Below, one piece after another: positions 12,801 through 49,100 of a stretch of DNA of 64,000 nucleotides (positions are counted from its first letter, which is position 1; every line of letters starts with the position of its first letter). The notes beneath the pieces were generated by a model. The model was not told where the DNA came from. It saw only the letters and a program-made list of their open reading frames with translations, and did no database searches. Where the stretch lies: assembly GCF_037392515.1 (NCBI RefSeq), contig NC_090285.1, positions 3,971,501 through 4,035,500 on the forward strand. Direction: 5' to 3'. The DNA comes from Haliotis asinina (Eukaryota > Mollusca > Gastropoda > Lepetellida > Haliotidae). A program made the position numbers and the translations under genes.

Positions 12801-15183
12801 CCCTCCGGCCCCCTTCCCCTACCAACCTGAACACCTCTATTTCTTGTATCTTCCCACCCCACCCCACCCCATCTCAGGTGTGTCTCGCTGTGTTATGGGT
12901 TCTCTAGTGCATATCTGGCTTAAGAGAGAACAATAATAAGATTTACCCATTTAAAGCCTACCTGTACAACTATCCAGTTTCTCCTCCGTTCCCCGCCGAC
13001 TTCTTTTCATCCACCCTACCATCCACCCTACCATCACCCCAATCTTGAAGTGTCCTCTGCATGATTATCATAGAAAGCTTTAGACTGGGATGTTGTAACC
13101 TTTCTAAAACGTGTTTTGAACAAAAATCCTATGAGAACGAGCAGTCTCGAGTGATCATCTGGCTTTGTGAAATGTGGACTCATAGGGCCAGAGCTGCTGG
13201 AAAACTGCACGACGTAGAAGGATGATGGGAACGTTGAAGTCATCCCTCTTGTCACCATGACTGGTAGGGAGTACATTGTCACTCTGACTCATGTTGTTAT
13301 GTGGCTTGCTGTGTTATGCAGACGGTTTTTATACGCAGATTTTGTCATTAGTTACAAAAGAAATTACTTTTACTGTCATTTTGGTTAAATTTGGGTTTAT
13401 CTGTCAAAATTGAAATTCTGGGTTTTTGGAGTGGTTGCAAATTAAGCAAGCGGTAACACATTTTATTTTATTTTATTTGTAATTATTACAATCTAGGAGA
13501 CCTTTTTGGTAGTACATATACCTGAACCTTGTCAGCAGAGTAGACGGGGTAATGTGTAGTGACACATTTGCTTCTTGAGTGATATACGGTATCTCCATTT
13601 ATGAAATGCTTCATGAGCACGCCAAGTCACGTGTTTTGTAGTCTGTATAGGCGGTTTTAGACGAGCCGCTGACCAAGACCCTGTCATATGAGATCCTGTG
13701 TAAGATTTCGGTACTATGTACTGATGTTAAACGTTGCTGTGACAGGAGTAAGATGTATGTTGGTCTGCTTTGATTGCACATGGGTTTGGTTCTGTGTGTA
13801 AAACACATAACACAGCAGTGTTCTTAAGTCGATGAACGCTATTCCTGTCTGTACTGTCAGATATTCACAGTTGGGCAGCTATAGGCGAATATCAAAACAA
13901 GACGTTTGTGTTGACCAGTATTTGACTATAAGGTCAGATGGTGCGAGTCTCAGGGTGGCTATATTAATGATTGAAGTGTTGCTCCACTACTGCGTCCCGT
14001 GATGGAGCGAAAACGTATCAATATGTATGTACAACTGACTGTATGCGATATTATTGCTGTTGAACAATTTCTTTATCTGTTTTAAAGTCTGTTATGATCG
14101 ATATCCTTCAAAACGCTGTCAGTCTGTTTGAAGGTCAGTCTGTTTTGACTGATATCCTTCAAAACGTTGTAAATCTGTTTGAAAGTCAGTCTGTTATGAC
14201 TGATATCCTTCAAAACGTTGTAAATCGATGGATAGTATATTGCAAAAACACTGACGTGCAAGATTACATTGGCAACTCTGTATGTTTAATGCATGTTTTA
14301 TTACACTCTACCTCAAAATGTCTCCACTTTCATTATGCTTATGGATGAAAGGTCCCCTGTGATACAGAATTATCGATATCCCTGGTCTCCTCTACATGAT
14401 CACCAGTCGCTCATCTAAATGTAGGACTACTTCAGCCAAGGCTGGAAACACATGACCTACAACAGCTCCTGGCAAATACAAGGACCTACGCAAGCGCAAG
14501 CAGCTTCTTTGGGTTGAAATATCCCGCACTGTGTCGACCCCTTGTAACGTACTTGAGGTTTAGGGACTCTTTGCTAGCGTACTTTGTCGCTGAGAGAAAC
14601 TGAAAGTACGTAGGGGTTGAGAGATACTCTGATAACATACCCCGGGAATGAGAGACTTCCTCTTGACGTACCTTGGAGTTAAGAGACACTCTCATGACGT
14701 ACCATGGGATTGAGAGACTCCCTCATGACGTGCCTTGGGACCGAGAGACTCCCTCATGACGTACCTTGGGATTGAGAGACTTCATCATGACGTACCATGG
14801 GGTTGAGAGACTTCCTCATGACGTACATTGGGATTGAGAGACTTCATCATGACGTACCTTGGGGTTGAGAGACTTCCTCATGACGTACCTTGGGATTGAG
14901 AGACACTCTCAGGACATACCTTAGAGTTGAAAGACTCCCTCAAAACGTAACTAGGGATTGAGAAACTCCATCATAATTTACCTTGCTGTTGAGAGACTCT
15001 CTCATAACGTACCTTCGGGTTGAGAGATTCCCTGATTGCCTCTGTCCTCCCATGTTCCTTCCACTGGCCGAAGAGTTTGACAAATAGGACACACATGGGG
15101 TCAGTCTTTGTAAACACGTCCAGATCGGCCAGGTCCTGGCAGGACACGAGAATCTCCACCCGGCCACCAGGGGGCGCTGACAT
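3560..15183 (-). CDS. CPNE-like: Copine family protein, 15 coding exons
   Basis: Copines are cytosolic calcium-dependent phospholipid-binding proteins that dock on membranes through two C2 domains and bind partners through a vWA-like domain. I rebuilt the gene from minus-strand exons: 15183-15013, 12605-12526, 11906-11794, 11482-11358, 11099-11005, 10204-10115, 9725-9651, 9218-9120, 8227-8149, 7784-7728, 6949-6779, 5131-4979, 4760-4650, 4417-4313 and 3796-3560. All have AG/GT borders, and the phases join without a break to give 1761 bp, 586 residues plus a TAG stop, close to the usual copine size of 530-580. The chosen start is the ATG at 15183, seven codons before the first C2 strand. An upstream coding exon cannot be excluded. 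Individual exon ends come from conservation and splice consensus, not from transcripts. Exon 14 has two in-phase donors, so a 594-residue form is possible. Confidence 0.93.
5558..6254. repeat. 36-bp minisatellite, about 19 copies, copine intron 11
   Basis: The unit contains GAGATATAAAG then GTGTATACAC then CAGATAACGCTTGG. GTGTATACAC is a perfect palindrome. Copies differ at a few sites (GAGAT or CAGAT, AAAG or ACAG) and one copy near 5660 is a base short. The unit length is a multiple of three and stop-free in several frames on both strands, so it makes open frames of over 200 codons that are not genes. Confidence 0.95.
7045..7243. repeat. 95-bp tandem duplication in copine intron 10
   Basis: CATGGTAGCTGGACATC recurs at 7052 and 7147, and the following 95 bp are nearly identical, differing by one or two bases. 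This is a recent simple duplication. Confidence 0.9.
8368..8988. mobile_element. MULE-like MITE with long terminal inverted repeats, copine intron 8
   Basis: Both ends begin CAGTCTAAGTAAACTTA and stay alignable as inverted repeats for about 95 bp, including GAGTCTAACAAA and GGTCGCGTCA. The 10 bp CTAGCTATGG flank the element on both sides (8358-8367 and 8989-8998) as a perfect target duplication. Long inverted repeats with a 9-10 bp duplication are typical of Mutator-like elements. At 621 bp with no transposase it must be non-autonomous. A diverged relative lies at 50372-50918. Confidence 0.8.
9120..11482 (-). CDS. CPNE-like: Copine exons 4-8: linker and C2B domain
   Basis: These exons encode residues 121-283. 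Recognisable parts are GLINLTAEIV at the linker to C2B, FRTEVQHK and NPSWRPF, then RLCNDDLDRPIQFSC, FKSAYDKLGEF and a lysine-rich stretch (CPKKEKKKKK) before GSVRFYQFR, as copines have before the vWA domain. The acidic calcium ligands are missing: loop 1 reads LGKVGFLNNRKP where copines have LxKxDxxxKSDP, and loop 3 reads CWHTNYG where they have CYDWDSDG. Exon 8 must use donor CG/GTAGGT at 9119, because the better-looking GTGAGC four bases on would put TAG in frame. Confidence 0.9.
9795..9844. repeat. GCAC microsatellite
   Basis: A run of GCAC/CACG tetranucleotides in copine intron 6, with a single GCAT interruption. Confidence 0.95.
10365..10440 (+). mobile_element. SINE fragment
   Basis: The block CGGGTCTTCAGCGTGACGAG followed by GCATTAGCAATTAGGCTACC matches, from memory, the inverted tRNA-like end of a common gastropod repeat. 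It sits in copine intron 5. Confidence 0.5.
10785..10965 (+). mobile_element. tRNA-like SINE with CACT tail
   Basis: GTAGGTTCGATCCCTGG at about 10850-10866 is a near-perfect pol III B box. About 80 bp later the sequence ends in CTCACTCACTCACCC, the usual tail of gastropod SINEs. No A box or cloverleaf is convincing, so this is a tRNA-derived repeat, not a tRNA gene. Confidence 0.5.
11794..15183 (-). CDS. CPNE-like: Copine exons 1-3: C2A domain
   Basis: Exons 1-3 encode residues 1-121. Exon 1 gives VEILVSCQDLADLDVF then TKTDPMC, the classic copine C2A opening, followed by GRTEAI and ESLNPK. Exon 2 gives FSVYDID, exon 3 gives HHDFVG. Aspartates at about 22, 28, 80, 82 and 92 occupy the five usual calcium-binding positions, so C2A should bind calcium. 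Exon 1 ends at AACCCGAAG with donor GTACGT. The following intron of about 2.4 kb starts with a 31-bp array derived from this exon end, and also holds a 51-bp triplet repeat and a degenerate tract. Confidence 0.92.
14085..14230. repeat. 51-bp tandem repeat, three copies, copine intron 1
   Basis: GATATCCTTCAAAACG recurs at 14100, 14151 and 14202. The unit is 51 bp and leaves a plus-strand frame open, with no coding character. Confidence 0.9.
14500..15012 (-). repeat. 31-bp array of exon end plus 5' splice site, copine intron 1
   Basis: On the gene's strand, exon 1 ends TCTCTCAACCCGAAG and the intron opens GTACGTTATGAG. The next roughly 15 units of 31 bp each repeat this junction, for example TCTCTCAATCCCAAG then GTACGTCATGAG. 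About six copies keep AAG/GTACGT exactly; others vary to ATG/GTACGT or AAG/GTATGT. Similarity fades towards 14500. The array thus begins at the true donor and consists of copies of the last 18 or so exon bases, the donor and about 12 intron bases. Because 31 is not a multiple of three, use of successive donors would shift the frame. Confidence 0.93.
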
Positions 15184-15849
15184 GGCTGGGAGGTACAGAC
15201 ATTATATGATCAGATTTGAATGCTTTACATACAGATATTTGTCTGAGACTGGTATGAAAATTTTAACCACTGATCCTTCTATCACAGTGCGTGTCACCTG
15301 GAGTATCTGCCTTACCTCATGTATTAATAATATATGGGGTCCAGGAATACACCTGTACCGGTTATTGTGTTCTACGGCAAGGTAGATTATACAGACTTAA
15401 TAATTCATATATTAGTCAACTGTCCAGGCAATAAACATAAACAAATCCTTAGGTTAGTTGAAAGATGTATATGTCTATCATATATTTTAAAGTCCAAATG
15501 TTCTTTAATCTAAGTGCTCTACCTTGGATTTGGGAAAGAAATACTCGATTCTGATTGGTCAGTCAAAAGTTATCATTTCACAAAAAACATATCAACCTCC
15601 CGAGGCATGCGTGTGCAAGATACTATTTCGACCCCTACTGAGTAGATCAACCCTCATTTTAAAACTGGATGTCACATCAACGTTCTGACATCTATACTGG
15701 ACAAATATAAGTTAAGAATACTGGTATTTTTATGACGTATATTTTATCAGCATGTCAGTGAATGAATCATTCTTCAGAATTGCAAAAGTAACAAATATCC
15801 CTAACTATTTTTGTTCAGTATATTTTGGCTTGTCTGCATGGTGTTATTT

Positions 15850-16055
15850 GTCATCAAACGCAACATTCGGCTATTATCCAGCAATCAGAGAACGTGGAAC
15901 AGAGAATCCCGTGATGAACGCCATGAACATCTCCATGTGCAGTTAAAATACCATGACATGCATCCACGAAGACAACAGGACTGGTCACAAATAACACAAA
16001 CAACAAGCATGGGTTGCTGGTTGTAATCCGAATCTTCACGGATCTCTTCAGGTGC
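15850..16055 (+). mobile_element. SINE copy
   Basis: It starts with CGGCTATTATCCAGCAATC and runs through GTGATGAACGCCATGAACAT, CCATGACATGCATCCA and AAGCATGGGTTGCTGG to GAATCTTCACGGATC. The order matches other copies in this window (near 22.8 kb and, inverted, 49.8 kb). Confidence 0.6.
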
Positions 16056-16624
16056 GCAGCGTTGATGTAACAGCAACCTCCAGCAATTTGCTGGTTCATC
16101 TATATACATATACACGTGCAAATTTACATTTGATAAAAAGCCCTGTAAATTTAAGATTCAAAACACAAATACAATACCGTGCAAAACGCATCTCCGAAAT
16201 CTGTCATTTTAGACACCACTACCAAGTGTTAGCGAACACTTACTTTTGACCAGCAGTATCTGTTGGCGACAGGGAGAACATGAGTGTATGACCTGACTCC
16301 TCTGACCAACGATTTGCTAGGGCGTAACCCCAATAGCGGAATAAATTATTACACGTACTTATATTGATGTTTATACTCATTCCGCCCGAGAGTGACATAC
16401 CTGTATGTACACAGATAGATTGACGTGATAGGTAATAGTTTGACATTCTTTAGGGGAATAAAAACGCTAACTGAATGTCACGTGTAACCTTGGCCTATGT
16501 ATGCCCATGTAGTGCTGACGTACACTACTATCTCCACCTATAGTACTGAAAACGTAAATTTAAGTTGGAATCGCAATGTTTGCAAATGTTACCAGTGTAG
16601 CAAACGCTCTATGTGAGTAGGGAA

Positions 16625-17600
16625 AAATCACAGGTATATTGTAGTCTATCGATTACTGTATATTGTCTATGGGTTACTGCGTTACTACAGGTATGCTGTA
16701 GTCTGTCAGTATCGTATCACTACAGGTATATTGTAGTCTGTCAGTATCGTATCTCTACAGGTATGTTGTAGTCTGTCAGTATCGTATCTCTACAGGTATG
16801 CTGTAGTCTGTGAGCTATTGTTTCACTACAGGTATGCTGTAGTCTGTGAGCTATTGTTTCACTACAGGTATATTGTAGTCTGTGAGCTATTGTTTCACTA
16901 CAGGAATATTGTAGTCTGTGAGTTATTGTTTCACTACAGGTATGTTGTAGTCTGTGAGTTATTGTTTCACTACAGGTATATTGTAGTCTGTGAGCTATTG
17001 TTTCACTACAGGAATATTGTAGTCTGTGAGTTATTGTTTCACTACAGGTATGTTGTAGTCTGTGAGTTATTGTTTCACTACAGGTATATTGTAGTCTCTG
17101 AGTTAATGTGTCGCTACAGGTATATTGTAGTGTGTGAGTTATTGTTTCACTACAGGTATATTGTAGTGTGTGAGTTATTGTTTCACTACAGGTATATTGT
17201 AGTGTGTGGGTTAATGTGTCACAACAGGTATATTGTAGTGTGTGAGTTATTGTTTCACTACAGGTATATCTGTGAGTTAATGTGTCACTACAGGTATATT
17301 GTTGTCTGTGAGTTAATGTGTCACTACAGGTATGTTGTAATCTGTGGGTTAATGTGTCACTACAGGTATATTGTAGTCGATAGTTTACTGTGTTACTACA
17401 GGTATATTATAGTCTATAGGTTATTGTGTTGCTACAGATGTGTTGTAGGCCATGGGTTATTGTAGTCTGTGGGTTACTGTTTTACAACACGTATCTTAAT
17501 AGTATGTGGATAGTTGTGTTGGTACAGGTTTATTGTAGTCCGTGAGTTAATGTGTTACAACTGGCATTCAAAAATCTATAAATCATTGTGTCACTACAGG
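16625..17600. repeat. 36-bp minisatellite, about 26 copies
   Basis: The unit reads TTTCACTACAG, GTATATTGTAG, TCTGTGAGTTATTG. CTACA and TGTAG form an inverted repeat within each unit. Variants GTATGTTG and GTATGCTG alternate, and the edges are degenerate. Each plus-strand unit resembles a CAG/GTATRT donor. No exon is recognisable next to it. It lies upstream of the copine start codon. Confidence 0.93.
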
Positions 17601-18694
17601 TATAGTGTAGCGAAGCGAGAGAGTAGCAACTGTACTACTACAATCCATACATCCAGGTCACGTGTCTCATGTCTCGAGTCTAGCGCTACGAGTACTCGGG
17701 TTACACAAATATTTAGGTGCTACATTTGTGTGTCATAGTTAGATCTGTCCCCTGACAGGCATTAGTTGATTTTTATTTCGGTAAGTCCAAGCTAGAACAG
17801 GATCAGTTATGACAGTTGCATGACACCCGTACACGCCGAATTACCCATAGTTTTCACAATAACACCACTGGACAATCCGATAACTAGACCTTGTAAATAT
17901 TTAAATATATATTTTCACGAGAGTTATTGTTTCACTAGTCTGTGAGTTATTGTTTTACTACAGGTGTGTGAGTAAGAATGCATATGTGAGTTTCAGGTTA
18001 TCGCTGTCAAAGAGTCTCACTTATCCTCAGGGAGCATATATCCGGCGTCCCCAGCCGTTGTCTGCCTGTCATAGAGCTATTAACGGCCGAAAACAACTAT
18101 CACTCGGCCACTCTCTGAACTGAATCCCATGTGTTTGAACATGAACTAGCCTGGGCCCATGTTTGTTTAACAGATGATGGTTTCCAAGGTGCAACCCAAA
18201 TAAACCATTATGCGCAGTCTGTAATAATTGTGGCGTTGTTCACCTCTTTATATAATTAGAAATTAGTTCTATAAAACATTACGTCATTTCTCATAATTAA
18301 CAAATTACCATGTGCATTCGACAGTCAGCAATGTAATTACATCCTTCTGCTGCTAGATTTATCATGACCATGTTTCTTGTTGTTCGTCTGGCTGCTTTAC
18401 ATAATGTACCATCGATGTGGAAATTATGGCAACATTTCACCAGGAAACCAAAATATCAACATAAACAAACTCCAGTCTGTCAAGTGCCGAGATGACTTAA
18501 GAACACAAAGTATGAAGGCGATAGATCGGTAGTCGATAATCAATAATCAATGAAGGTGCTTGTAGATTCAATGCAGTGAAACGACACACTCAGTCTACCG
18601 ACACACTCAGCTGTAATACATTCTTACACACAGACACATTACACCACAATGAGACGATGTTTTACGATATACTAATTGAGAAATGTATACTTAC

Positions 18695-18960
18695 CTTATT
18701 CTGTAAGTCACCTGCGGCGTATAAACAACCCTTATATCAAGCGCTCGGCGATGAAAGTCGTCCAACTCCGTTCTGTCGAAGCTTGTGTACAATATCAACA
18801 TATATCTCCCCGCCACTACACGTACCCTCCACCAGACAGACGTACCCGTGTCACGTGGTTCAGGAGGGAGTCTACCCTGACAGGGAGGGGGTTAGCCCAG
18901 CTGTGTTGACATCACCAGGGAGATTACCACACCGTCACTGACAGTGAGAACCCTCTCTCG
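18695..18960 (-). other. Possible non-coding first exon of the copine gene
   Basis: On the minus strand a strong donor, AATAAG/GTAAGT, ends a sequence of moderate GC at 18695. Its reading frames do not join the copine ATG in phase, so if it is used it is 5' UTR. An acceptor-like ACCTCCCAG lies just before the copine ATG at 15183. The 5' end is unknown. Confidence 0.25.
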
Positions 18961-20224
18961 CACCCGGGTGTGTTGTAGACAGCTATACGGGTACACTTTA
19001 TTGTACAACTAACCCAACGCTTCTCACTGACGACATACTGAGAACAGAAGGATTTTCAGTGCGATAGTTCACCAGGCTTGTCAGTGCAAGAGTTCATTTC
19101 GGACACTCTTGGTGAACATCGATGTGATAGGTATTTGATCATGCATTACTGATCATGCATTACTGAGCAGTCTGTACTCGTCAAGCTTTACCGCCCATGT
19201 ATTACTTGTGATTGTGTTCTGGTCAAACTTTACTGCTAATGCTAATAGAACGTGTGCATGTTGAGTCAGGTCCTCCTCCACTCTCCAGGCCATCTGCCCA
19301 AAACAAGGGAACGAGAATACAAGACAATACACGTCCTTTACAAGAGCGGAGAATTTCAACTCTCATAAGTACGAGATACATGTACTTACTTTGTGTTAGG
19401 GTTCTTGGTATTCGCTGTGTTGTGGTAATTTCACCTGTAGACTGACTGTAGACATTTCACACTGAGACCAACAGCTGACCAGACGGTTATGCTCGTGCTG
19501 CCACCACGCAGGCTCACAGAGTATAATATGCTGTGTTTACATATCCTGTGTGCCAATGTATATGCATTGTGGGTTACAGACTAGATGACAGCTGTTTAAC
19601 GTCTCATTGACTCTGCTCACATCCTGCCCTGCACTGCTAACCCAAATTTAATGCATAATAAGGCTCCTGGTGGGGGCGATAATGATTATATACGTCCATT
19701 TATAGACCTTTATTCTCTGCTCCTTGGACAGAAAACAAACTAATTTGCCTGTGAGGTGAAAGCCGCGTCATACGCAACATCATCGCATACTACCGGGTAC
19801 CCACCCATTGACTGTTGGTCGAACAAGGCATGTCTATATCAAGGTCAGTCGTCACTTAAGAGATAAGACAGGTGTTGCACCTGCGTCAGTGCGGTGCAAG
19901 ACGGAAATAAATACTCAGAAGTCAAGCTACCGGCCACGTCATATTTAACAGTTAAAACAGCCTATCAAGTATTGTCATTTCCGATGTAGGGTGAATTGGT
20001 GTTTCCCGACTTGAAAGAGTATTTCAATACGATCAGGTCCAGGCAGTGTTGGAGGGAAAACCTTAAGTACTGCAGATGTTTGGTGATCAAGACTTTGGCG
20101 CAACTCACGAGCATTGATAGGTGCAAATAAAATAAGGATAACGCTCAGGAAGAATCATGGATTCGAACCCACGATTTTCGCACACCTTGTATATGCAACG
20201 ATGCACTCCTTAGAAGTCAATTGG

Positions 20225-20308
20225 CCGCTCGTGCGTATGTGCATGTATGCGTGTATGCGTGTGTGTGTGTGTGCGTGTGTGTGCGTGTGTGTATGCGTGG
20301 GGGCTAGA
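20225..20308. repeat. GT/GC microsatellite
   Basis: Alternating purine-pyrimidine run of GTGTGT, GTGCGT and GTATGC steps, a possible Z-DNA former. Confidence 0.85.
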
Positions 20309-21062
20309 CCGGACTGATTCCGATTCATATGTTAACAAGGACCTATGCCACGAAACAGTTTAACATTGTTACACAACTCAAAACACAGTAATATACTGAC
20401 TCGAAGGCGACCGGGGCAGGTTTTCTCCCGTCATGCCGAGCGTGAGACTGCATTATATATACATTTCAAAGAAAGTGATGCGTTTATAAATTAATACAAG
20501 AATACCGTGTTAGCTCTTCCTCAAATATAAGGAGTGACTTCAGTATCTACACGAGAATCGAACCGACCCCTCAGACGACAGTGAACGCACGTACCATTTA
20601 CCTACACTATGTCAATGCTGGTAGTTGCGATGGTTTCCAACAAGAGAGTGAAAAACCCCAACGCCCTGTTGTCAGGTATAAATCCAGTTACACTTTCACA
20701 AATACCAATGCTAACATACATAACAATATGTGTGCATGCGTGTGCATGCAAGTGCAAGCGAGTGTGTGTGTATGCATGAGTCAGTCATTACGAGGCAGGT
20801 GTTATACTCCAATACCTAAAGTTAAGAGATAAATCCGACGCTTGGCGGGCATGAATTATTTCTCACCGTCGGGATTCCACAACGAATCGATACATGTAAT
20901 GTTGAGCGAAGCGCCCCTAGAAGGACCTTAAGCAGGGATGTGCCATTACACGATAAATCGCTGTATTGTACATGGTATTTTATGGAGACTTCTTCCGCTT
21001 TATTGTTTATCAACATTGATTGATTGATGTGTGAGGCTGCGCTGACGGCGGTCTTATAGCTT

Positions 21063-21195
21063 TAATAGAATCTGGACAAAAAAAACCCGGTGATCAACCT
21101 CATGAGCATCGTTCTACGCATTTGGGATACGATGACATGTGTCAACCAAGCCAGAGAGTTTGACCACCTGATAAATGACTGTTGTATCAATACTT
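21063..21195 (+). mobile_element. SINE fragment next to a Tc1-like insertion
   Basis: GTGATCAACCTCATGAGCAT, GATGACATGTGTCAACCA and GACCACCTGAT follow the same order as the copy at 22.8 kb. It is cut short just before the left end of the Tc1-like element at 21209. Confidence 0.6.
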
Positions 21196-21208
21196 TGATC
21201 CATAAGTA

Positions 21209-22640
21209 TACTCTCCAAAAAAGAAACGCGTATAGGAATTTCAGATGTATTTTTATGTTTATTTTGAAAGATCTTGTAGGACTTATGAGTCAATGAAATA
21301 TAGCGAAATTGGACACTATGAATGCAGACTTATCCGTCTTTGGCACCAACTAGAGGAAAGTCAGTTTGAGTGTCAGATGGAGACTTGTGGTGGCGCTGAA
21401 GTCAGTACCTATAGCTAGTGTGACCACAGTGGGCATCCAGAACTGCACGACATGGCATCGAACGAATTAGTCTCAGAATCTCGTGTTGCCCATTCGCAGC
21501 CCTCTTTGCCTGTAGTGCCTGTGAGAGTTGCTGAAGTGTCTGGGGCTAAGTGTTCCAGCGTCGCGCCCGTCTGTCCAGGGCATCCCATAGATGTGTGATC
21601 GGGTTTAAGTCCGGTGATCTTGAGGGCCAGGGGAGCACATTGATGTTGTTGTTCTGGAGGAGGTCACTAGTGTGATGTGCTGTGTGAGGCCTGGCATTCT
21701 CCTGTTGAAACAACTCCCTCTGGCGATCAGTGATTCGAAGGAGGTGTGGGCGTAGGATTTTGTAACAGTACATTTGAGCTGTCGGGTTGCCCTGGATCAT
21801 AACCAAATCACCTCTTACAGCAGGTGAACTCACCCCACATCATAACACCTCTCTCGCCGTATCTGTCCACCTGGGGAGCGCAAGCGTCGGCGAAACGTTC
21901 ACGTCGACGTATGTACACCCGCTTTCTTCCATCGTGTCGTTCCAGTGGAAATCGTGATTCATCACTGAACCAGACTCTACGCCAGTTCGGTAGGTTCCAG
22001 GCCTGAACTTTGGTGCACAATTGAACTCGATGTCGGCGATGTCGTTGTCGAAGCACAGTGCCAAAATAAGGTCCTCTGGCACGTAAACCAGCCACTCATA
22101 ACCTGGCGGTCTGTGCATAAAGCCTCCTCAATCCGGGTATTTGTTGAGGGGTACTGGTCGCTGTAGCTGTTCGATGACGCCTCAGAGGTACCTCGAGATC
22201 GCCAACTACGAGGGGCATCTGCTACCGAATTCTTAGGGGCGATATATCTCCCAGAGCCATGAAATGGTGCTTTGGTGAACATTCGGTCGTCGGGCAACTG
22301 GACGTTGAGACTGGTCAGCTTCAAGGAGACCAATGTCGATATGAAGGTTGGATTCACTTAGATGTGGCATTTTGCGTTCGTCAACACTATTCCAAATTCA
22401 GTGAATAATCGACAGACAGAGATCAATCTTTTATACTCATCACTGAGACTATCTGACCCCCAACTTTCACGTGCATTGCATTCGAAATGTGCATTCTGTG
22501 ATACTACATGCCGAGATTGTAAATCATGCTGTTAAATACGGGTATTTTACGGTTCAGGTGTTTTGTGTTGTGATGTTTCAAGACTTAAACACCATAGGAC
22601 TCTTTTGTAAAATGAATAAGCGTTTCTTTTTGGAAGAGTA
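21209..22640 (-). mobile_element. Decayed Tc1-like DNA transposon
   Basis: Terminal inverted repeats match at 19 of 21 bases: TACTCTCCAAAAAAGAAACG at the left and TACTCTTCCAAAAAGAAACG read inward from the right. Both ends are flanked by TA, the expected target duplication. The 1432-bp element carries a broken transposase on the minus strand. Confidence 0.9.
21402..22370 (-). pseudogene. Tc1-like transposase pseudogene
   Basis: Fragments in different frames follow the order of a Tc1-family DD34E transposase. The N-terminus at 22370 starts MPHLSES and continues QSQRPVARRPNVHQSTIS, a helix-turn-helix. Next come VWFSDESRF (first Asp), VMMWGE, then LFQQENARPHTA and SPDLNPITHLWD. The C-terminus, RLIRSMPCRAVLDAH, ends at a TGA at 21402. 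At least three frameshifts and an internal TAG after RRWNT break it. The second catalytic Asp is Glu and the third acid is Thr, so the element cannot move itself. Confidence 0.9.
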
Positions 22641-22807
22641 TAGTAATCTGTAAAAAAACTGAGGATACGGGGTGGGTACCTCAATGACCCCTCGGTCTAA
22701 CTACTGCCCCGGTTACTGAAGACACGGATCTTCACTTGACGGGTATGTTTATCAACAATTGTGTTGCGTCACTAGCCACCAACTTAAACACGTGTCCTTG
22801 TGTCAGG

Positions 22808-22995
22808 GAGCGAAATACTTCTTGTAAGCAATATTCCAGCTATTATGGCAGCGGCCTGTAAATAATCAAGTCTGGACCATACAATCTAGTGATCAACAAC
22901 ATGAGCATTAATCCACGCAATTGGTATAGGATGGCATGTGTCAACCAAGTCAAGTCTTACCACTAGATTCCGTTTGTTGTCTCATGGGTTGCAGC
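22808..22995 (+). mobile_element. SINE copy
   Basis: AGCAATATTCCAGCTATTAT, GGCAGCGGCCTGTAAATAAT, CAAGTCTGGACCATACAATC and GTGATCAACAACATGAGCAT give the clearest copy of this family in the window, continuing through GGCATGTGTCAACCAAGTCA to a partial end. Confidence 0.75.
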
Positions 22996-24338: not shown

Positions 24339-24339
24339 C

Positions 24340-24525
24340 TGTGCAGTGGCAACAAATATCCTGACCATCCCCAAATTAGATAACTGTTACAACTGTCAGC
24401 AACTTCATGCGTGGTATCAGACATGGTCCGGTCTAGTGAAGTCATATTTAGCGATCGCGCAATTTGGAACCAGAATTGGTTCTTTCTAAAATATACACTT
24501 GTCACCGGAAATCTTGTACCGGAAG
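24340..24525. repeat. Dispersed repeat, copy 1 of a close pair
   Basis: About 175 bp, from AATATCCTGACCATCCCC to TCTTGTACCGGAA, is nearly identical to 26349-26510 in the same orientation. This copy has an extra 11 bp or so near ATAACTGTTACA. Confidence 0.9.
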
Positions 24526-24859
24526 TAGCGTCTCGACTAGACCTGACCCAAAAATCAAACATTGCGTTGATATACACTCTTTGAAAAATAATAAGGAAAA
24601 ATAAGGAAATGAACATGTTGTATTTTAGTGTATATAAGTCGATTAAGCTTGATCACAGATGAGGAAAATCACACACTGATGAACATATGTTTTGTTGTCT
24701 GCCTCAGCATAAATTCAGTTCGCTCACTGTACATGTGCGGACAAAGGGTTTGGCTAGCGGAATTCTTCCGTAAATCGTCATTCGTCCTTCAGTGCGTTGG
24801 CAAGTTTTCAGACTCTAAGGACAGTGGTGATTTCCAAAAAGTCGTCAATCAAGTTCGTG

Positions 24860-25250: not shown

Positions 25251-25407
25251 TCAAACTTGGTATTTGTTACCTTCCTTTACATCGTAAATTCTGTAATGAA
25301 AACATGATGTTGGTTTGACGTTTTATGGTCTGTGTTTTCGAAACATTGCACGTGCATTACGGGGTGAGCTTTTTTACATGCACTTTTCCAGTATCGTTTT
25401 CGGTTGT

Positions 25408-30774: not shown

Positions 30775-31129
30775 ATGCCTGCCTCTACAACCTGCGACGA
30801 TGTCGGTAACAGTAAATCTGAGAAGCATCTTTTATATCGTCTGAGCAGCGACGAGAGCGCACGCAGCGGGGAAAGCACACGCAGCGGACAGTCGCAGACG
30901 ACACGCGACACATCGTGTAGTCGCGTGCATAAGAAAGACCTGTGTAGCATGCAGGAAAAGGTTCCACCCAGACTGGACTTCGCTGACTATTACCCCGATG
31001 GCGGGTGGGGTTGGGTAGTGGTTGTGGCAGCCACGCTTGTTCACGTGTTGTGTAACGGCTTCCATTTCGCATACGGCACATTGTACCTGCAGATCAGGAA
31101 GAAGTTTCCTATCAACGACATCGATACAG
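30775..31129 (+). CDS. SLC16A-like: SLC16-like exon 1: N-terminus and helix 1
   Basis: Encodes residues 1-118. A hydrophilic Ser/Arg-rich N-terminal tail of about 70 residues ([17 protein letters not shown]) leads into [18 protein letters not shown], the family signature and helix 1, and then to [15 protein letters not shown]. Ends GATACAG with donor GTAAGA. Confidence 0.93.
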
Positions 31130-37100: not shown

Positions 37101-40100
37101 AGATATGCACTATGCACTTTTAGAGAAGTGTGGTGTGATACTGTGTGGAGCTGTACGTGCTTTACTTTCTCTGATTTTCAGAGATCAGTTCACATAATTT
37201 CACCAATGTTTTCGTTTACGACAATAGCCCGATATACGGCGTCAGTGATAGGGTGACTCCAGCTACATCATGGCGCCATGTTACTTCCGGGTCTAAACTG
37301 AACAACAAATGGTTGTCAGCGTTTACCCCGATATACTGAAAGAGTGACTCTCAATCCAACCTGATACCCATTTTGGGGGCACCAAATGCCCATTTGAAAC
37401 TTCTCCTACGACGACCAACAGTCGACCCGGATCCTACAATGTGCATGGTGATAGCACGATGGTACAAACTGTGTTTGTTTAACAGACCTTAAAGAGGACA
37501 CCACGGGCGTCTGTTTTAAAAATAACCACCTGTATTTTTACTCTTGAAAACTGACTAGTTGATAAGAATTTAGTTCCTGTTAGTCCCTGTTATAACACCT
37601 GTAGAACATGTGGATACTGTTGTCATGGCAACAAGCTTGGAGATTCAACAGATATCAGCCGCTGTTATCTACGTCATCATGTGAAGTGTGTCGAAATGTA
37701 ATATGTATTCCTAGTGTAACATATTAGGCTGCATAAAAAATAAATGTTTCTCCAGCACATTTTGTTTCAAAAGTGACGAGGGCGGTACGACTTTTTGTCA
37801 TTTTTGAAGTGACGAGGGAGGAGCACATTTCTCTTTTGTTCTCTCAGACAGAGAGATGGGAAGTTTAACACGTGTTAATGTGTGGTCGGTTCAGTCACTA
37901 CAGATACTAATTCTTAGTGGACAAATGGATCGGGACGCGGCCAAGTCAAAATTATTTTCTTTCAATGGCTTTGAAAAATTGTCACGCGCACAAACAAAAG
38001 AGATGATGCGGCGATGCCCGAGATACATTGCACTTGTTTTATCTAGCCTTAGTACTATGTGTTTTACTCGCCCCATGTTCATACTAAGACACCCTACTAG
38101 AGGTTGGTGCCCATGCCATGGTTGAATGTTAACATTAAAATGCTCCCCACCCCACCCCACCCCTAACCTTCCCTCCAGTGTTACCCACTTGTTGCTGTAT
38201 CGCTAATTTATACCCCTAGTTTTAGTTGTAATGTTGGTGACGGTGACTTCAAGCAACGTTCACTCGCCGAGAGCACATGTGCGCGTGTGCATGTGATGCA
38301 TTCTTTTGACAGCTGTAATACTGAGACAGAGACTCGCCGAGGGAGAGGGAGAGCTGGTACAGGGAGTTCACCATACCAGTATTGATTTTCCACGGCTATA
38401 TGGTCGGGATTCCAGTCAAGGTTCTCTCTCGCTCAACGATCTGAGCTGCTGCGTAGATACAATGCAGTGTCTTGTCTATGTAGTCAGCCGCTGTGTTTCT
38501 AGGGATGGTCGTTCATGGTTGTTCCACACAGGCGTCGTCTCACCGACGTGAAATTGCCACACATCAGGTTCTGTTAGCCACTTATCCTGGGGACATCACT
38601 AGGCCTAGCATAGATGGAAAACAGAGGTAAACAGAGATGGAATACTTACATGACAATTGCATATAAAGGCCATACACAGTAAGAGGTCTTTGTGAAGATA
38701 TGGCATCAGTCGTACTGTTAACCATTGATCGGTCATTAAAAGGTGACGATCGACTGGACTACCTTGCTTTGTATGCTGCTCGCCTTCATGATGTCAATCA
38801 CGGCATCGTCTGGTCCAGACTCAATTATTTACAAACCACCGTCGATGGTGTCGTATATTTGGAACATTGCAATATTGCCGAGTGATGGGTTAAACAAGCG
38901 ATAAAACCTACGTAAGAATCTATTGCCAAAATATACTATGTAGAATCGCAAACATATCACCGTGATACATGTATAGAAAGTGTATTAGGTTTACGAATGC
39001 GAACCACAGATGGACCTGTGATTCTTTTGGCTTCATTGTAATGTTTATGTGTAATATAGAAACCACAATGGCAAGGTAGCACTTTAAAGTACCAAACCTC
39101 GGATGATATCTCCTATATGTATCCCAGTCCAAACAATACCACCTATCTGTGTCATACTCCAGACGATATGACGTGCATGTACCATGCTCCAGACGACATG
39201 ACTGATATGTATCCTAGTCCAAACAAACGATATCACCTATATGTACCATACACCAAACGATACCACCTATCTGTGTCATACTCCAGACGATATGACGTGC
39301 ATGTACCATGCTCCAGACGACATGACTGATATGTATCCTAGTCCAAACAAACGATATCACCTATATGTACCATACACCAAACGATACCACCTATCTGTGT
39401 CATACTCCAGACGATATGACGTGCATGTACCATGCTCCAGACGACATGACTGATATGTATCCTAGTCCAAACAAACGATATCACCTATATGTACCATACA
39501 CCAAACGATACCACCTATCTGTGTCATACTCCAGACGATATGACGTGCATGTACCATGCTCCAGACGACATGACTGATATGTATCCTAGTCCAAACAAAC
39601 GATATCACCTATATGTACCATACACCAAACGATATCACCTATCTGTGTCATACTCCAGACGATATGACGTGCATGTACCATGCTCCAGACGACATGACTG
39701 ATATGTATCCTAGTCCAAACAAACGATATCACCTATATGTACCATACACCAAACGATACCACCTATCTGTGTCATACTCCAGACGATATGACGTGCATGT
39801 ACCATGCTCCAGACGACATGACTGATATGTATCCTAGTCCAAACAAACGATATCACCTATATGTACCATACACCAAACGATATCACCTATCTGTGTCATA
39901 CTCCAGACGATATGACGTGCATGTACCATGCTCCAGACGACATGACTGATATGTATCCTAGTCCAAACAAACGATATCACCTATATGTACCATACACCAA
40001 ACGATATCACCTATCTGTGTCATACTCCAGACGATATGACGTGCATGTACCATGCTCCAGACGACATGACTGATATGTATCCTAGTCCAAACAAACGATA

Positions 40101-43100
40101 TCACCTATATGTACCATACACCAAACGATACCACCTATCTGTGTCATACTCCAGACGATATGACGTGCATGTACCATGCTCCAGACGACATGACTGATAT
40201 GTATCCTAGTCCAAACAAACGATATCACCTATATGTACCATACACCAAACGATATCACCTATCTGTGTCATACTCCAGACGATATGACGTGCATGTACCA
40301 TGCTCCAGACGACATGACTGATATGTATCCTAGTCCAAACAAACGATATCACCTATATGTACCATACACCAAACGATACCACCTATGTTTACCCTAGACC
40401 AGACGATGTCATCTACACATACCCTATGTATTTCGCTCATATGTACCCTGCATCGATTGATAACATATGTATCGCAGACGATATCATCCTTGTCCAGACT
40501 GAATCATCTAAAGGTTGCGGAAGCATGATGATATAAGTAAATCTTCATGTATCGCAATCAAGATGATATCACCACTGTGTATATTTCCAGGTTATATCAT
40601 CTAAATATACATTAGTATATACAATATAAACTTCATGAACCCTGCTACGGGCGTTATCTTTTTCTGTGCCTTTGATACCTCAACAGTATCTCTTTATATC
40701 TGACACCTTGGGGACTATCCGGTTACTTGTCCATCTCCACCTTCATAAACCTGAGCATCGTGGATATCACCTTAATATACCCTAGCCTAGGTGATATGAT
40801 CCCTTGTGACTTCATGTTTCAAATAAAGGCTTACTTGCACACAGGATCTTGCTGTTTACAACAGCGAATCACATAAAGAACCACAGTGGCCCACTTCTAA
40901 CAAGGGATGACTTTCACATACATTTGATACAGGCTCACAGTTCAACAGCGGAAAATTGGATCATTTGTGTGCAGATTGTCTGTCGGGTCTTATCTCGCGA
41001 GATCTCGTGAGTCTTTGCAGTAGCCTACTTTCTTTGCTTGTTTAATTATCACCAGGGGAAGTCACCTTAGAATTCCGTTTTCATTTGAAAATTATGGGTT
41101 TTTTTTGGACATGGCCATGTTTTCGGGATCCCCTGAAATGGTTGCCAGCTGTACAACATCCACAACTTGATAATGGTAACCGAAATATGCATTGACAGAG
41201 AATGGTGTTCTTCACGTGACCTCGTGTACGACCTGTTGGTGTTTTTTCACGCCGTACATAAGAATGTCGTGTAGAAATACAACCCGTTGTCTGGAATGTC
41301 GTGTAGAAATACAACCCGTTGTCTGGAATGTCGTGTAGAAATACAGCCTGTTGTGTGGAATGTCTTGCAGAAATACAACCTGTTGTCTGGAATGCCGTGA
41401 GGAAATACAACCTGTTGTGTGGAATGTCGCTCAGAAATACAACCTGTTGTCTGGAATGTCGTGTAGAAATACAACCCGTTGTCTGGAATGTCGTGTAGAA
41501 ATACAACCTGTGGTGTGGAATGTCGTGTAGAAATACAACCTGTTGTCTGGAATGTCGTGTAGAAATACAACCGGTTGTATGGAATGTCGTGTAAAAATAC
41601 AACCTGTTGTCTGGAATGTCGTGAGGTAATACAACCTGTTGTCTGGAATGTCGCACAGAAATACAACCTGTTGTCTGGAATGTCGTGCAGATATATAACC
41701 TGTTGTGTGGAATGTCGTGTAGAAATACAACCTGTTGTGTGGAATGTCGTGTAGACATACAACTGGTTGCTGGAATGTCGTGAGGAAATACAACCTGTTG
41801 TCTGGAATGTCGCATAGAAATACAACCTGTTGTCTGGAATGTCGTGTAGAAATACAACCGGTTGTCTGGAATGTCGTGCAGAAATACAACCGGTTGTCTG
41901 TAATGTCGTGTAGAAATACAGCCTGTTGTCTGGAATGTCGCGTAGAAATACGACCTGTTGTCTGGAATGTCGCGTAGAAATACAACCTGTTGTCTGGAAT
42001 GTCGTGTAGAAATACAACCCTTTTTCTGGAAAGGCGAATGGCATTTTTGCAGTTTCAGTACATTCGTAACAGTTAGGACACGGTAGCGCATGGATATTTA
42101 GCACGGTGTCTTTCCAAAATGACCGTCAAGTTAGTGTTAGGGCGCGCAGATAGACACACGCACTCATGTACCCGCAAGACAGACTTATATAAGCAAGGTT
42201 GCAGTCTCATTAGAAAATAACAATCAGTAATTGCACTTAAGGTGCGGTGTGTCTTTGTGACATTTGATACGATGGGTTTTTTTCATAGTATCCGTTTGAC
42301 ATTCTGTGTAACCGGTTTGTACGTCATATATCTGTTTGACATTTATTCTCTGTTTTTGACATTCTGTTCGGCACGTTTATGGGTTTTTCAACATGCCGCT
42401 TCTCAGTGTGGCCCCAGTATGTCTGTTTGATATTCGATCGTATGTTTGACAATAGGTGTGTTTGTTTGACATTCGGTGTGTCTATTTCCATTCGGTGTAT
42501 TTATTCAACATTCGGTGTGTCTGTGTGACATTGGCGTATCTATTTGACGCTCACGTTTGCCTGGTTTACAATGTGACGTTTGGTGTTTCCTTACCATCAT
42601 GTTCCAATTTGACTTTGTAGGACATTAAGAATATTCATTCCACATTCGTTGAACCTAACTGGCATTCCGTGTGTCTGGTTGACAGTCTGTTTGATCTTCC
42701 GTGTGTCTGGCTGATATTCGGTGCGTCTGTTTGATCTTCAGCGTATCTGGTTGATATTTTGCACGTCTGTTTATCTTCAGTGTGGTAAACATTTAGGGAG
42801 TCTGTTTGATCTGACGATCATACAACCGATTGAGAATGACCTTGAGAATATTCATTCAACATTCGTTGAGTCTAACTGACATTCCGTATATCTGGATGAC
42901 AGTCTGTTTTATCTGCCTTATCCCTAGTTGACATTTGGCGAGTCTGTTTGATCTTCAGTGTGTCTGGTGGACACTTGGCGAGTCTGTTTGATCTTCAGTG
43001 TGTCTGGTGGACACTTGGCGAGTCTGTTTGATCTTCAGTGTCTGGTGGACACTTGGCGAGTCTGTTTGATCTTCAGTGTGTCTGGTGGACATTTGGCGAG

Positions 43101-46100
43101 TCTGTTTGATCTTCAGTGTGTCTGGTGGACACTTGGCGAGTCTGTTTGATCTTCAGTGTCTGGTGGACACTTGGCGAGTCTGTTTGATCTTCAGTGTGTC
43201 TGGTGGACACTTGGCGAGTCTGTTTGATCTTCAGTGTGTCTGGTGGACACTTGGCGAGTCTGTTTGATCTTCAGTGTGTCTGGTGGACACTTGGCGAGTC
43301 TGTTTGATCTTCAGTGTGTCTGGTGGACATTTGGCGAGTCTGTTTGATCTTCAGTGTGTCTGGTGAACATTTGGCGAGTCTGTTTGATCTTCAGTGTGTC
43401 TGGTGGACACTTGGCGAGTCTGTTTGATCTTCAGTGTGTCTGGTGGACATTTGGCGAGTCTGTTTGATCTTCAGTGTGTCTGGTGGACACTTGGCGAGTC
43501 TGTTTGATCTTCAGTGTGTCTGGTCGACATTTGGCGAGACTGTTTGATCTTGAGAGGGTCTGGTTCATATGTAGTGTGTCTGATAGACGTTCGAGCCAGG
43601 CTGGCCAACTGTCGGTTAAAAATTTGGTTTAGCGATGTTGAGGTTGTAAGTGGCGTTGTACATGAGCGGATGGGAGGGGAGGGGTTAGAGTGGGGGAGGT
43701 TTAGCTATGTTGGGGTTGTAAGTGGTGTTTGACGTGAGCGGATGGGAGGGGCGAGGAAGTTAGAGGGGTGAGGTTTAGCTAGGTTGAGGTTCTAAGTGGT
43801 GTTGTACATGAGCGGATGGGAGGGGCGGGGAAGTTAGAGGGGCTGAGGTTTAGCTATGTTGAGGTTGTAAGTGGTGTTTGACGTGAGTGGATGGGAGGGG
43901 CGGGGAAGTTAGAGGGGGTGAGGTTGCAAGTGGTGTTTGACGTGAGCGGATGGGAGGGGAGGGGAAGTTAGAGGGGGTGAGGTTGCAAGTGGTGTTTGAC
44001 GTGAGCGGATAGGAGGGGCGGAGAAGTTAGAGGGGTGCGGTGATGTGTGTTTGTGAAGTGAAACTGGTCGTACCTCGTTTCTCTGACAATGTTATTCTGG
44101 TACAACAGACGAACGCCGTGCCAAGATGCAATAAAAACACCGAGCTCCACTACACCGAGAGTCTGTATTGTTAGCTGCAGGAATAGTCGCCGTGGTGGTC
44201 GTTGTGGTTTACAATCCGCTCCAGGTCCTTCTTGAACTACAGAAACATCAATCATACAGAAACATGGCTACTGAGAGAGTTCCACGATTATGTTTGTGTA
44301 CACCTGAAATAAATATGAAAAACTGATTTGTGAAAAGACATACCAAAATGGTGACCATAGGGGTCACTCAGTATTGATGTACAAAATCGGGTACTCGTAG
44401 CGGCATAAGGCCACTCAGTATTACAAGACAGTCACTCACTCACTCACTTGCGTGAGATACTTAAGCGACTGCATACGGGAATTTATGTTATCCATAGGCA
44501 TTGTACACACGATTCCTGTCATAGCTAGTGTCTAACATATAGCACTACACTGTGGTTTCAGTGTATTTGTCATATAACTAACATTAGACGATACAAGGTT
44601 GTTTGGACTCTTAAGATAGGAACTGCTATCGTTGGAAGACGTTGAACGTGAACTGGTTTCTTGACCTTAATGATAGTAACGTGCTTACTTCAGCGTCCGT
44701 GAGTAAACCTTTTAACCAATTCCACGTTGCGACGAAACACGGCCATAACACAAGACCACCTGGTGTCTTCACTACGTACTTCCACTACAATTGCTGTACA
44801 CATTTTGTATGGGTTGTCCTAGGTTCTCTTGCTTCCGGTCACCTTGACCTCTGTCCCCAGTTTTGTCACACAGATACGAATGTGGATACCGTCTTGGGAT
44901 TAACATTAACATGTTTTATCTACGTGTTTTATTTCATGGGATTAGTAGACAACGGATTATGGCCATACTTTTGAATAAACGTGTCCTGTGTCCTAGTGGT
45001 CACACCACACACCTTCCCAAACACAACTTCGATAAGACACTGTATTTGTTTGAAAGCAATGTCACGCATTCTCGCAATAGAGAGCAAATGTCAAGAAACA
45101 CATATGTTCAAACTTATATGTTCTCCACAGGTTGTACGTGCTCCGCTGAAACCTGAAACTCTACTAACTGGGGTAGAATGTTAACTCATCACATCTGTCA
45201 CCTTTGTAGATTCTCTACGTAGATACAATGCATTGAACCCTCATTTACCTCCGTTTGTGCGGTCCAAAATGCTGATAACAGCATTAATAACAACATTTAA
45301 TCATTATTTCTCGTCGAGTGCTGCATATAATACTGGTAACAGCTCTGGAGCAGTATTTCTTTGAGTATTTCGTATGTTAATATGTTTAGTTAATATGTTT
45401 GAATATGCAGTATGACGTCAGAAGACTACATACGTATGTGCAGTATGACGTCTTGGTACTGAATAGGCAGTCTGACGTGACAGGGCTGAATATGCGATAT
45501 GGCGTATGTGAAATGCGAATATACGGGTAAACGAATAGGTAACTGACATTACAGGAAAAGATAAACGAATATGATTAAACTTTACAGTTATGTATATTTA
45601 CTGTGACGTTAGAGAATGGAATGCAATAACATAGAATCAATTTAGACAAATTTATACGATTATTAGGTATGATTTTAGAGGACTGAATGTGACTTAAGAG
45701 CAATGAAGACAAAAATGCTGTGTTGTATGTAAGAAATGAAAACAAATTCACGGTATGGCGTTAAAGGAATGAGTATACAGTATCCCATTATTGGAGAAAT
45801 GAAAGCGATTACGCAATTCCACTACTTCCAGACAGTTGGACAGATGTAAGTATATTACATGTTTGGCGTTTCTGTTTTCCAGCCTGGCTTGGAAGTCTAG
45901 GCATCGGGATCTCCTTGTTCATCTCGCCTGTCGTGACCATCATTTGCAGAAGGAAGAGCCCACGTCTGTATGCCGTCATTGGAGGACTCATCTGCGCCCT
46001 AGGTTGTCTCTTTCTGGCCTTCTCCACCCAACCAGAGCAACTCTTCATCAGTCATTGTGTTGTCATGTCGCTAGGCAGTGGAATCACAATAGCAACGGCC

Positions 46101-49100
46101 AATATTATGGTGGGGAGGTACTTCCGGAAGAGACGCGAGGTGGCCGAAATGATTCTGGTTGGAGGAACTGGCGTAGGAACTGCTCTGATGTCGGTACTCT
46201 TCAGGGAACTCATGAGGTATAATAATCCTCATGATGTCTCAGTATAGCGTGAATCAATATCATTTTCCGCTTAACTCAGAATCATAATTCAACCCCTATT
46301 CCATCCTTTCAGTCCGTTTAGAAATTGAGAAATTGTCTATTATTTTCGAAAATGCTAGAATTCATTTGCAGTATTAACCAACATACATAGCCAAGTTCAG
46401 GTCGACCCTGCCCAGCATGTATATAATTGGCGTGACAAATGTGCCTGCGAGACGCGAAAATAGACAAGTGGGAATTTATTCTGTGAAGAGGAACCTAGAG
46501 TAGCATAAATATGACACACTGTCAGACGCCGTATTCCTCTGTGTTCTATTATCAGATAGGTCATCTTTGGGGTCAAAACTTTCTGTTAACATTGCAACGA
46601 GTATTACTTCATGTTTGACGACTGTATTTTGTCAATGATATTTTTATGCCTGACAGTGTATATTCATCTCTATGGTTACAAACAATTCATATACAGTAAT
46701 ATAAGTTATAATGATGACCCGCCTTGTCTGTAAAGTGTCCAATGTTCTTCTCCAGCATCGTGGATTGGATGCATGGCTTGCAGTGTGTCGCGGGGCTGCT
46801 GATTCTTACCATCATTGCTGGTGCCATGTACCGCTCGGCCTCGTTATACCATCCCCGGAGGAAGGTTATCCTCCACCTGAAGAGTCAGAAGAAGAACCGC
46901 AGGGACAGGGAGGCGGAGAAGCCGCCATACTTAGACTTCAGTGCTCTAAAGATGAGGTCCTTGCAAGCTCTCATGGTTATCTCCTCCATCGTGGCAGTCG
47001 GAATACATGTGCCATTTATTGTTCTGGTAGGTGGAATACATGTGCCATTTATTGTTCTAGTACGTAGAATATGTGTGTAATGTATTGTCCTGGTAGGTGG
47101 AATATATGCGCCATTTATTGTTCTGGTAGGTGGAATACGTGTGACATTTAGTATTCTGGTAGGTGGAATACGTGTGCCATTTATTGTTCTGGTAGGTGGA
47201 ATACATGTGCCATTTATTGTTCTGGTTGGTGGAATACATGTGCCATTTATTGTTCTGGTAGGTGGAATACGTGTGCCATTTATTGTTCTGGTAGGTGGAA
47301 TACATGTGCCATTTATTGTTCTGGTAGGTGGAATACGTGTGCCATTTATTGTTCTGGTAGGTGGAATACATGTGCCATTTATTGTTCTGGTAGGTGGAAT
47401 ACATGTGCCATTTATTGTTCTGGTAGGTGGAATACATGTGCCATTTATTGTTCTGGTAGGTGGAATACGAGTGCCATTTATTGTTCTGGTAGATAGAATG
47501 CATGTGCCATTTATTGTTCTGGTAGGTGGAATACATGTGCCATTTATTGTTCTGGTAGGTGGACTACGTGTGCCATTTATTGTTCTGGTAGGTGGACTAC
47601 GTGTGCATTTATTGTTCTGGTTGGTGGAATACATGTGACATTTATTGTTCTGGTAGATAGAATACATGTGCCATTTATTGTTCTGGTAGGTGGAATACAT
47701 GTGCCATTTATTGTTCTGGTAGGTGGAATACATGTGCCATTTATTGTTCTGGTTGGTGGAATACATGTGCCATTTATTGTTCTGGTAGGTGGAATACATG
47801 TGCCATTTATTGTTCTGGTAGGTGGAATACGTGTGCCATTTATTGTTCTGGTTGGTGGAATACGTGTGCCATTTATTGTTCTGGTAGGTAGAATATGTGT
47901 TCCATTTATTGTTCTAGTACGTAGAATATGTGTGTAATGTATTGTCCTGGTAGGTGGAATATATGCGCCATTTATTGTTCTGGTAGGTGGAATACGTGTG
48001 CCATTTATTGTTCTGGTAGGTGCAATATAGAATACATGTGCCAATTATTGTTTTGGTAGGTGCAATATATGTGCCATTATTGTTCTGGTAGGTGGATCAC
48101 ACGTGGTAGGTGGAACATACGTGCCAATTTGTTGTTCTTCTTACACGTGACTTCGATGTCCTGGTAGTTAGTAGTTTCTTGGTAAATGATGTCTATATTT
48201 CATTGATTTGTTCATTGCAGGGAATGTGAATCTGTATCACACACTGGTCATGTCACCCAACGGAGAAACGTCTCCAAATTATGTTGGTGACATTACTTGT
48301 GACATTTGGTATTGATTGCATATATTCGGGGCAAGAAACATGTCACATTTGTTTGACCCTATTGATGACTGTTGTTTACCATTACGATACCCAACTCGTC
48401 AAGTGAACTGCTGTCTCTTGCGAAGCCTGGTCTTCAGAACCCATAAGAATATCACTGTTGATAACACCTGATAACATGGGTTTGCTTAGTTACAATACCC
48501 GTGGCAATATGAGGGCTTTGTCAGGGAAACTATGACATGCCTGAATGAGGTAGTCTATTATTCGAATCTATATCCGTGTTGATAGTTTCATGATTATTTT
48601 TGTGCTAGTGCATAGGTTTCTACATTGGACTACCACTGCATTAAACTCTTTCACTGTTCTCTTTTACTTACAGCTTCACACAGCGTCAGAACACGGCGTC
48701 CCCGACAAACAGCTGCTGCTCCTGAACGTATACCTAGGCATCGGTTACGCTGTTGGTTGTTGTGCTCTAGGCTACATTCTCATTCGGAACAGTATAGAGT
48801 GTTCCATCTCTCGGCGTCACTTGTGTCAAACAGCCGCCATCTTTTGTGGTGTCTTTTCGCTGCTTCTTATCATGGCGGAAGACCATAACGCGCATGCGCT
48901 GTTCGCATGGGCCTACGGCATATGTTGTGGAGCGTATTATTATAGTTTTAAGATGTACGCATATGAACTTGTTAAAGCCAAACTGATGGAACGAGCTTGG
49001 AGTTTTCTATCAGCAGTCCAATGTTTTCCTTTTCTTTTTGGAGCGCCAGTAGCAAGTAAGTGATGGAGTTTGGTTTATCTGTTCACTTAGTTTTGTTTAG

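Follow-up and report, generated by a model that had tools for sequence, protein, structure and literature searches.

Tandem repeats that include a splice junction have been described before, in human and in amphioxus genes. One of them, the minisatellite of the human 6-16/IFI6 gene, is said to have a 12-base unit and to concern a single gene. This minisatellite provides multiple splice donor sites (attributed to Turri 1995), and its downstream units are reported to be used as donors (PMC4526556). In amphioxus, tandem repeats at exon-intron boundaries of Adh3 were named mirages, and the globin genes carry such a mirage at an acceptor (BflGb6) and at a donor (BflGb9), where RT-PCR (reverse transcription PCR) suggested normal splicing (PMC3087553); PGBD5 is a further case (PMC3902484). 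Rogers, Gao and Lynch, and Zhuo et al. are cited for the gain of introns where AGGT sites are duplicated in tandem (PMC3087553), and in abalone a minisatellite is described in intron 3 of a TSSK1-like gene, which has a 27-base unit and varies between individuals (PMC6905558). Here we analysed a stretch of 64,000 bases from the 1.14 Gb genome of the abalone Haliotis asinina (C6:3971501-4035500, referred to as the window; unless a contig or locus is named, positions are counted within it), in which two genes, a copine gene on the minus strand and an SLC16-type transporter gene on the plus strand, both contain an intron whose beginning is made up of tandem copies of the adjoining exon-intron junction. 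This anatomy had been proposed for two unrelated genes on opposite strands in an initial annotation and is confirmed by Tandem Repeats Finder (TRF), a Pfam C2 match and an alignment with seven orthologues. We assign a probability of about 75% to the reading that the arrays are minisatellites of the mirage type, which arose by neutral tandem duplication across junctions in an abalone genome rich in minisatellites.

The transporter gene (SLC16-type, monocarboxylate transporter) was delineated by sequence reading and orthologue alignment. Exon 1 (30775..31129) ends with ACAG|GTAAGA and is followed by exon 2 (45883..46216), which also matches Pfam MFS_1 with an E-value of 8.6e-8 and 31.9 bits, slightly below the curated cut-off for that piece. 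Exon 3 (46756..47026) ends in phase 0 with ..GIHVPFIVL|gtaggt, its donor beginning at 47027, and is followed by exon 4 (48674..49055, LHTASEHG..) and by exon 5 with the stop codon (52134..52798, from the sequence). The minisatellite at the end of exon 3 has a period of 33 and 33.1 copies in TRF (47000..48096) and begins 27 bases within the exon, so that each unit comprises 27 exonic bases and 6 intronic ones. After joining of the exons the product could be aligned with seven mollusc orthologues, and its closest protein relative, from Haliotis cracherodii, is 98% identical over 100% of the query. The segment GI(H/Y)(V/I)PF is present as a single copy in every one of the seven orthologues, and the exon 3 junction is therefore correct; an annotated Haliotis orthologue likewise has one GIHVPFIVL copy. 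Judged by this alignment, the array appears to derive from the conserved exon. We rejected the possibility that the array belongs to a dispersed satellite or transposon family, since in a search for exact matches all ten genome matches of the 33-base unit (10/10) lie inside this one array. The identical donor CTGGTAGGT is retained at 24 places in the 33 copies. The third copy contains an in-frame TAA (47078..47080), and donors past copy 2 would therefore close the reading frame, only the first two keeping it open.

Exon 1 of the copine gene (15013..15183, minus strand, MSAPPGGRV..RESLNPK) was identified by a Pfam C2 match with an E-value of 1.4e-5 that extends through residue 57 of 57, and by a tblastn match to human copine-3 with an E-value of 6.7e-10 for an approximate query sequence. 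The exon ends in phase 0 with ..RESLNPK|gtacgt, the intron starting at 15012. A minisatellite of period 31 with 12.6 copies (14644..15033, minus strand, TRF) spans this donor, its first copy containing the final bases of exon 1 and gtacgt. Exon 2 (FTQVFMVDL.., approximate ends ~12525..12605, tblastn E-value 1.4e-5) carries the C2 domain onward, and the array thus opens intron 1. Ten candidate donors were scored over the 12.6 copies, the inner ones leading to a frame shift or to stops. A smaller in-phase donor duplication had also been suggested for the end of copine exon 14 (4284..4318, minus strand); there we found only the 11-base repeat GCTGTGGTCAG twice, 24 bases apart, and no covering array in TRF at a score of 30, so that this site was discarded as an array.

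The serial putative donors raise the possibility that the arrays are functional and tune expression, for instance by diverting transcripts to stop-bearing inner donors, followed by degradation. The 24 identical transporter donors, the stops or frame shifts reached from inner donors in both genes and the reported use of downstream repeat units of human 6-16/IFI6 as donors (PMC4526556) would fit such a role, against which stand the single GIHVPFIVL copy of the annotated Haliotis transporter orthologue and the confinement of the exact transporter unit to its locus. We regard a regulatory function of this kind as improbable.

The initial annotation had tentatively taken these arrays for an undescribed class, a view that we abandon in light of the amphioxus mirages (PMC3087553, PMC3902484) and of human 6-16/IFI6 (PMC4526556). 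As in mirages, the abalone repeat unit spans the exon-intron boundary, both in the two window arrays and at further loci, both boundary types are duplicated (for acceptors at locus L031 and, more weakly, L050, see below), and many units, although not all, keep their splice signals, as the donor counts of the two arrays illustrate. Abalone differs in being a gastropod and hence in another phylum; moreover, RT-PCR and length-instability data belong to amphioxus, whereas the abalone arrays are known from one assembled sequence, for which on the other hand a rough genome-wide sample is available. The resemblance to 6-16/IFI6 lies in tandem repeat units that could serve as donors, and while downstream donors are reported to be used in human, the inner abalone donors are candidates. 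Tandem duplication also copies splice sites in intron gain at AGGT sites, but the abalone arrays lengthen an existing intron. The TSSK1-like minisatellite comes from the same genus, is intronic and has a similar unit length; the excerpted report does not mention that it spans a junction (PMC6905558). No mirage-type case from a mollusc was met in the excerpts of the literature consulted.

The mirage-type reading can be formulated as a sequence of steps. Local slippage or unequal exchange would duplicate the last ~10-40 exon bases together with the first intron bases, and the mirror-image duplication would occur at acceptors. The outermost splice site and the entire coding sequence would survive, so that the messenger can stay unchanged, and the duplicate would escape selection, being near neutral, unlike duplications inside exons. 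The array would then expand and homogenise as any minisatellite does, with no need for a donor-specific process. In this model we infer the exon as source, the mutational step and the neutrality. The earlier suggestion that an array is tolerated because one working donor always remains agrees with this reasoning: the outer site stays intact, and the array would therefore be tolerated.

To interpret the junction arrays the repeat content of their surroundings is key. TRF was applied across the window (61 rows listed), and arrays with a unit of at least 9 bases and at least 2.5 copies were merged, resulting in 24 arrays that cover 9,844 of the 64,000 bases (15.4%). The window is thus minisatellite-rich, and both main arrays are too long for chance repeats.

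Further junctions were sampled in the kinesin and dynein families, where exons were located by the Pfam models for kinesin (128 matches) and dynein DHC_N2 (82 matches) and sixty 3-kb loci (153 kb) were extracted, 9.5 kb of which are occupied by arrays. We analysed 139 of the 210 matches (57 kinesin, 82 dynein), 94 of them being flanked in the locus sequence by 100 or more bases on either side; the resulting junction counts are lower bounds, as the arrays inspected singly were those near matched exons. Among the 94 matched exons two acceptors and no donor are hit, and one extra donor case lies at an exon beyond the Pfam match. In this donor case (L026, locus positions 2705-3098) a 32-base minisatellite spans the end of a kinesin-gene exon, ..LYKQMDDK|gtaggg; we take the gene to be kinesin-1 and the exon end to be conserved. 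At L031 (C9:2975436-2978648, locus positions ~1740-2110) a 39-base minisatellite spans an acceptor in a kinesin gene and is the mirror image of the donor arrays. The weaker case L050 is a 61-base acceptor-spanning array in a dynein gene with few copies and, by our reading, ~10-14 shared exon bases. Arrays in L021, L033 and L063 were rejected as junction-spanning, being located 16-37 bases away from the junction, and a two-copy repeat was seen in the dynein block on C13. These counts correspond to a rate of about 1-2% for each junction, with broad limits (1/95 donors, 0.03-5.7%; 2/94 acceptors, 0.3-7.5%). At two-sided junctions an intron copy of at least 20 of the 26 junction bases was present at 0/46 donors and 1/46 acceptors, as compared to 4.2% of 1,448 intron-internal 26-mers. 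The kinesin and dynein sample shows no donor bias, and its rate is not above the intron-internal repeat density; with two acceptor-spanning arrays among the 94 matched exons the idea of a donor-only class does not hold.

For a genome-wide survey we used the donor 9-mer CAGGTRAGT, which occurs 25,340 times in the genome, and its reversal, with 16,934 occurrences. Three tandem copies at gaps of 6-36 gave 587 matches for CAGGTRAGT versus 82 for the reversed motif. We rejected these match counts as a sign of excess because few large arrays inflate them, and therefore counted distinct places by hand. In the fully listed gap bin of 6-20, the 73 CAGGTRAGT matches fall into 22 places, or 21 when a repeated element is taken as a single place, and the 17 matches of the reversal into 6. 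An example of the inflation by large arrays is a period-39 CAGGTGAGT array at C6:55172813-55311778, which supplies about half of one list of matches, appears three times ~69 kb apart near C6:55.2-55.3 Mb and is probably a segmental duplication. One repeated element (L072, L101 and L104 at C2:51810, C2:51829 and C7:50063) carries a donor-like CAGGTGAGT array with near-identical upstream sequence at its three places.

Recurrence of this element and the general difficulty of assembling long near-identical arrays might point to misassembly as the cause of array enlargement. Substitutions, however, distinguish the copies, the assembly contigs are chromosome-sized, and the TSSK1-like abalone minisatellite is reported to differ in repeat number between individuals (PMC6905558), so that we consider an assembly artefact very improbable.

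The 5' edges were read for 35 CAGGTRAGT arrays, the 22 of the gap bin 6-20 and 13 further places among the matches listed, and for 20 of the ~26 hand-counted places of the reversed-motif control, by means of a codon score for which 73 exons of kinesin and dynein genes had served as the training set. A coding score >6 was obtained at 11/35 donor-motif edges (8/22 and 3/13, the latter including the doubtful L091, whose 'exon' is a read-through of GAG-rich repeats), as compared to 2/20 reversed-motif arrays, 3/102 random intron points and 45/46 true donors, which were partly in the training set. One of the two high-scoring arrays of the reversed-motif control (L105) reads TTAG|GTGAGTGG following an open frame and is itself donor-like, which makes this control unclean and conservative. 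Twenty open frames, 17 from donor arrays and three from reversed-motif arrays, were scanned with Pfam. Three of them scored above the curated cut-off, each being matched to the last residue before the donor: one is a Peptidase_M1 (L089, E-value 3e-17) and two are alpha-L-fucosidases on separate chromosomes (L095 and L076, E-values 1e-8 and 2e-6). The other 17 had no Pfam match above the cut-off (weak sub-threshold ones in L075 and L073), and a PDB search with L103 and L071 found no relative. In 13 cases chosen as exon-like, 10 to 45 pre-donor bases are repeated in copy 2 with at least 80% identity, i.e. the array includes exon-like sequence rather than merely adjoining an exon.

Donor arrays are thus present at homology-backed junctions of five genes, encoding the copine, the transporter, the M1 peptidase and two fucosidases, besides the kinesin gene and the two acceptor cases. 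The anatomy of the arrays, their recurrence in unrelated genes and the involvement of both intron sides are direct observations. Whether donors are preferred was assessed against several backgrounds. The fairest control is provided by single copies of CAGGTRAGT, 5/20 of which are exon-edged at a score >6 (5/19 if L134 and L135, which share upstream sequence, are counted once), as compared to 11/35 arrays (p 0.76, small sample). Within the window two of the 12 placed donors lie inside arrays, with 1.76 expected by circular shift (P 0.53; some of these positions are approximate, and copine has further exons beyond those placed). If the rate of exon-edged arrays among presumed real donors is compared with that of non-exon arrays (13, or 10, for 16,934 sites), p is 0.65 (or 0.07), the number of presumed real donors, ~8,400, being the difference between 25,340 and 16,934.

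Several results tilt in favour of an excess at donors. Distinct places number 21 versus 6 for the reversed motif, above the ratio of 1.5:1 expected from single copies (p 0.04), and the 8 exon-edged arrays (11 with the three doubtful exons) per ~8,400 presumed donors exceed the 6 arrays per 16,934 control sites with p 0.08 (0.009, the lower value including the doubtful exons), i.e. 9.5-13 per 10,000 presumed donors versus 3.5 for the control motif. A strict test that requires an array edge 5-40 bases inside the exon yields 0.16 expected cases for the window (P 0.013); it is post hoc, as the window was chosen for reporting owing to these two arrays. At a coding score >4, 18/35 arrays compare with 6/20 single copies (p 0.16). 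Other points touch the exonic origin and the neutrality: the exon signal is softer against reversed-motif arrays (11/35 versus 2/20, p 0.067), also if the edge is allowed to shift by one copy (14/34 versus 4/20), and we infer from the orthologous proteins that splicing in vivo relies on the outermost site and would be unchanged.

Part of this evidence would be expected if donors were true hotspots, for example through breaks or R-loops at the 5' ends of introns, or if donor arrays were retained for aiding splicing. Such a model could draw on the 21 versus 6 places and on the acceptor-type 9-mer, for which we found no more than 20 triple matches, spread over 7 places, versus 105 matches for its own reversal; this amounts to no acceptor excess and, as single copies were uncounted, allows no rate. 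It is countered by the similar exon-edged fractions of arrays and single copies, by the 94 matched exons, where acceptors are hit twice and donors never, the one donor case lying outside the match, and by the scarcity of intron copies at donors and acceptors relative to intron-internal 26-mers. We therefore consider a donor-specific process unlikely; a modest donor excess over minisatellite density is possible, none is demonstrated, and background alone may suffice for the junction arrays. Of the general process envisaged in the initial annotation the recurrence stands, with further donor and acceptor cases in the genome, whereas donor hits above minisatellite density are not demonstrated. The annotation had named as refutation a genome scan in which the two genes were the sole cases or matched the repeat background: in our samples of exon families and motif places they are not the sole cases, and there is no clear excess over background.

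Taken with the known systems, the abalone arrays represent a known kind of array in another phylum, recurrent here and with high minisatellite turnover as its simplest explanation, which suggests that mirage-type arrays are probably no amphioxus oddity. Extrapolation of the kinesin and dynein rate would tentatively place a junction-spanning minisatellite at ~1-2% of Haliotis splice junctions, i.e. at hundreds to thousands of loci, an estimate to which we give somewhat less than even odds. If it is true, the spliceosome must regularly choose the outermost among up to dozens of identical serial donors, and these loci constitute a large natural experiment on the ranking of equal-strength splice sites and on neutral intron growth. 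The arrays would be a visible path to harmless intron lengthening, and with its 24 serial identical donors the transporter gene is a locus where RNA reads would directly reveal the choice of the spliceosome among equals.

A third large array had been suggested at the right end of the window. A period-60 array is indeed present there (63485..~64050, minus strand, TRF and sequence) and continues beyond the window edge. By our reading it starts on this strand at an open frame of ~70 residues that ends ..TDKC + A|GTAAGTGG, with the candidate donor near coordinate 64041. Pfam and PDB searches with this open frame found no relative, and the array, which plausibly spans a donor, stays a candidate.

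Several large minisatellites (39105-40386 and 41262-44035) are packed into transporter intron 1, distant from its splice sites. Further downstream, 60420-60699 holds 6.2 copies of a 45-base unit with 100% identity in TRF, containing TTGCAGGTGG. Finally, a long open frame on the minus strand (55580-56659) carries DDE_3 and HTH_Tnp_Tc3_2 transposase domains and marks a Tc1/mariner-like element.

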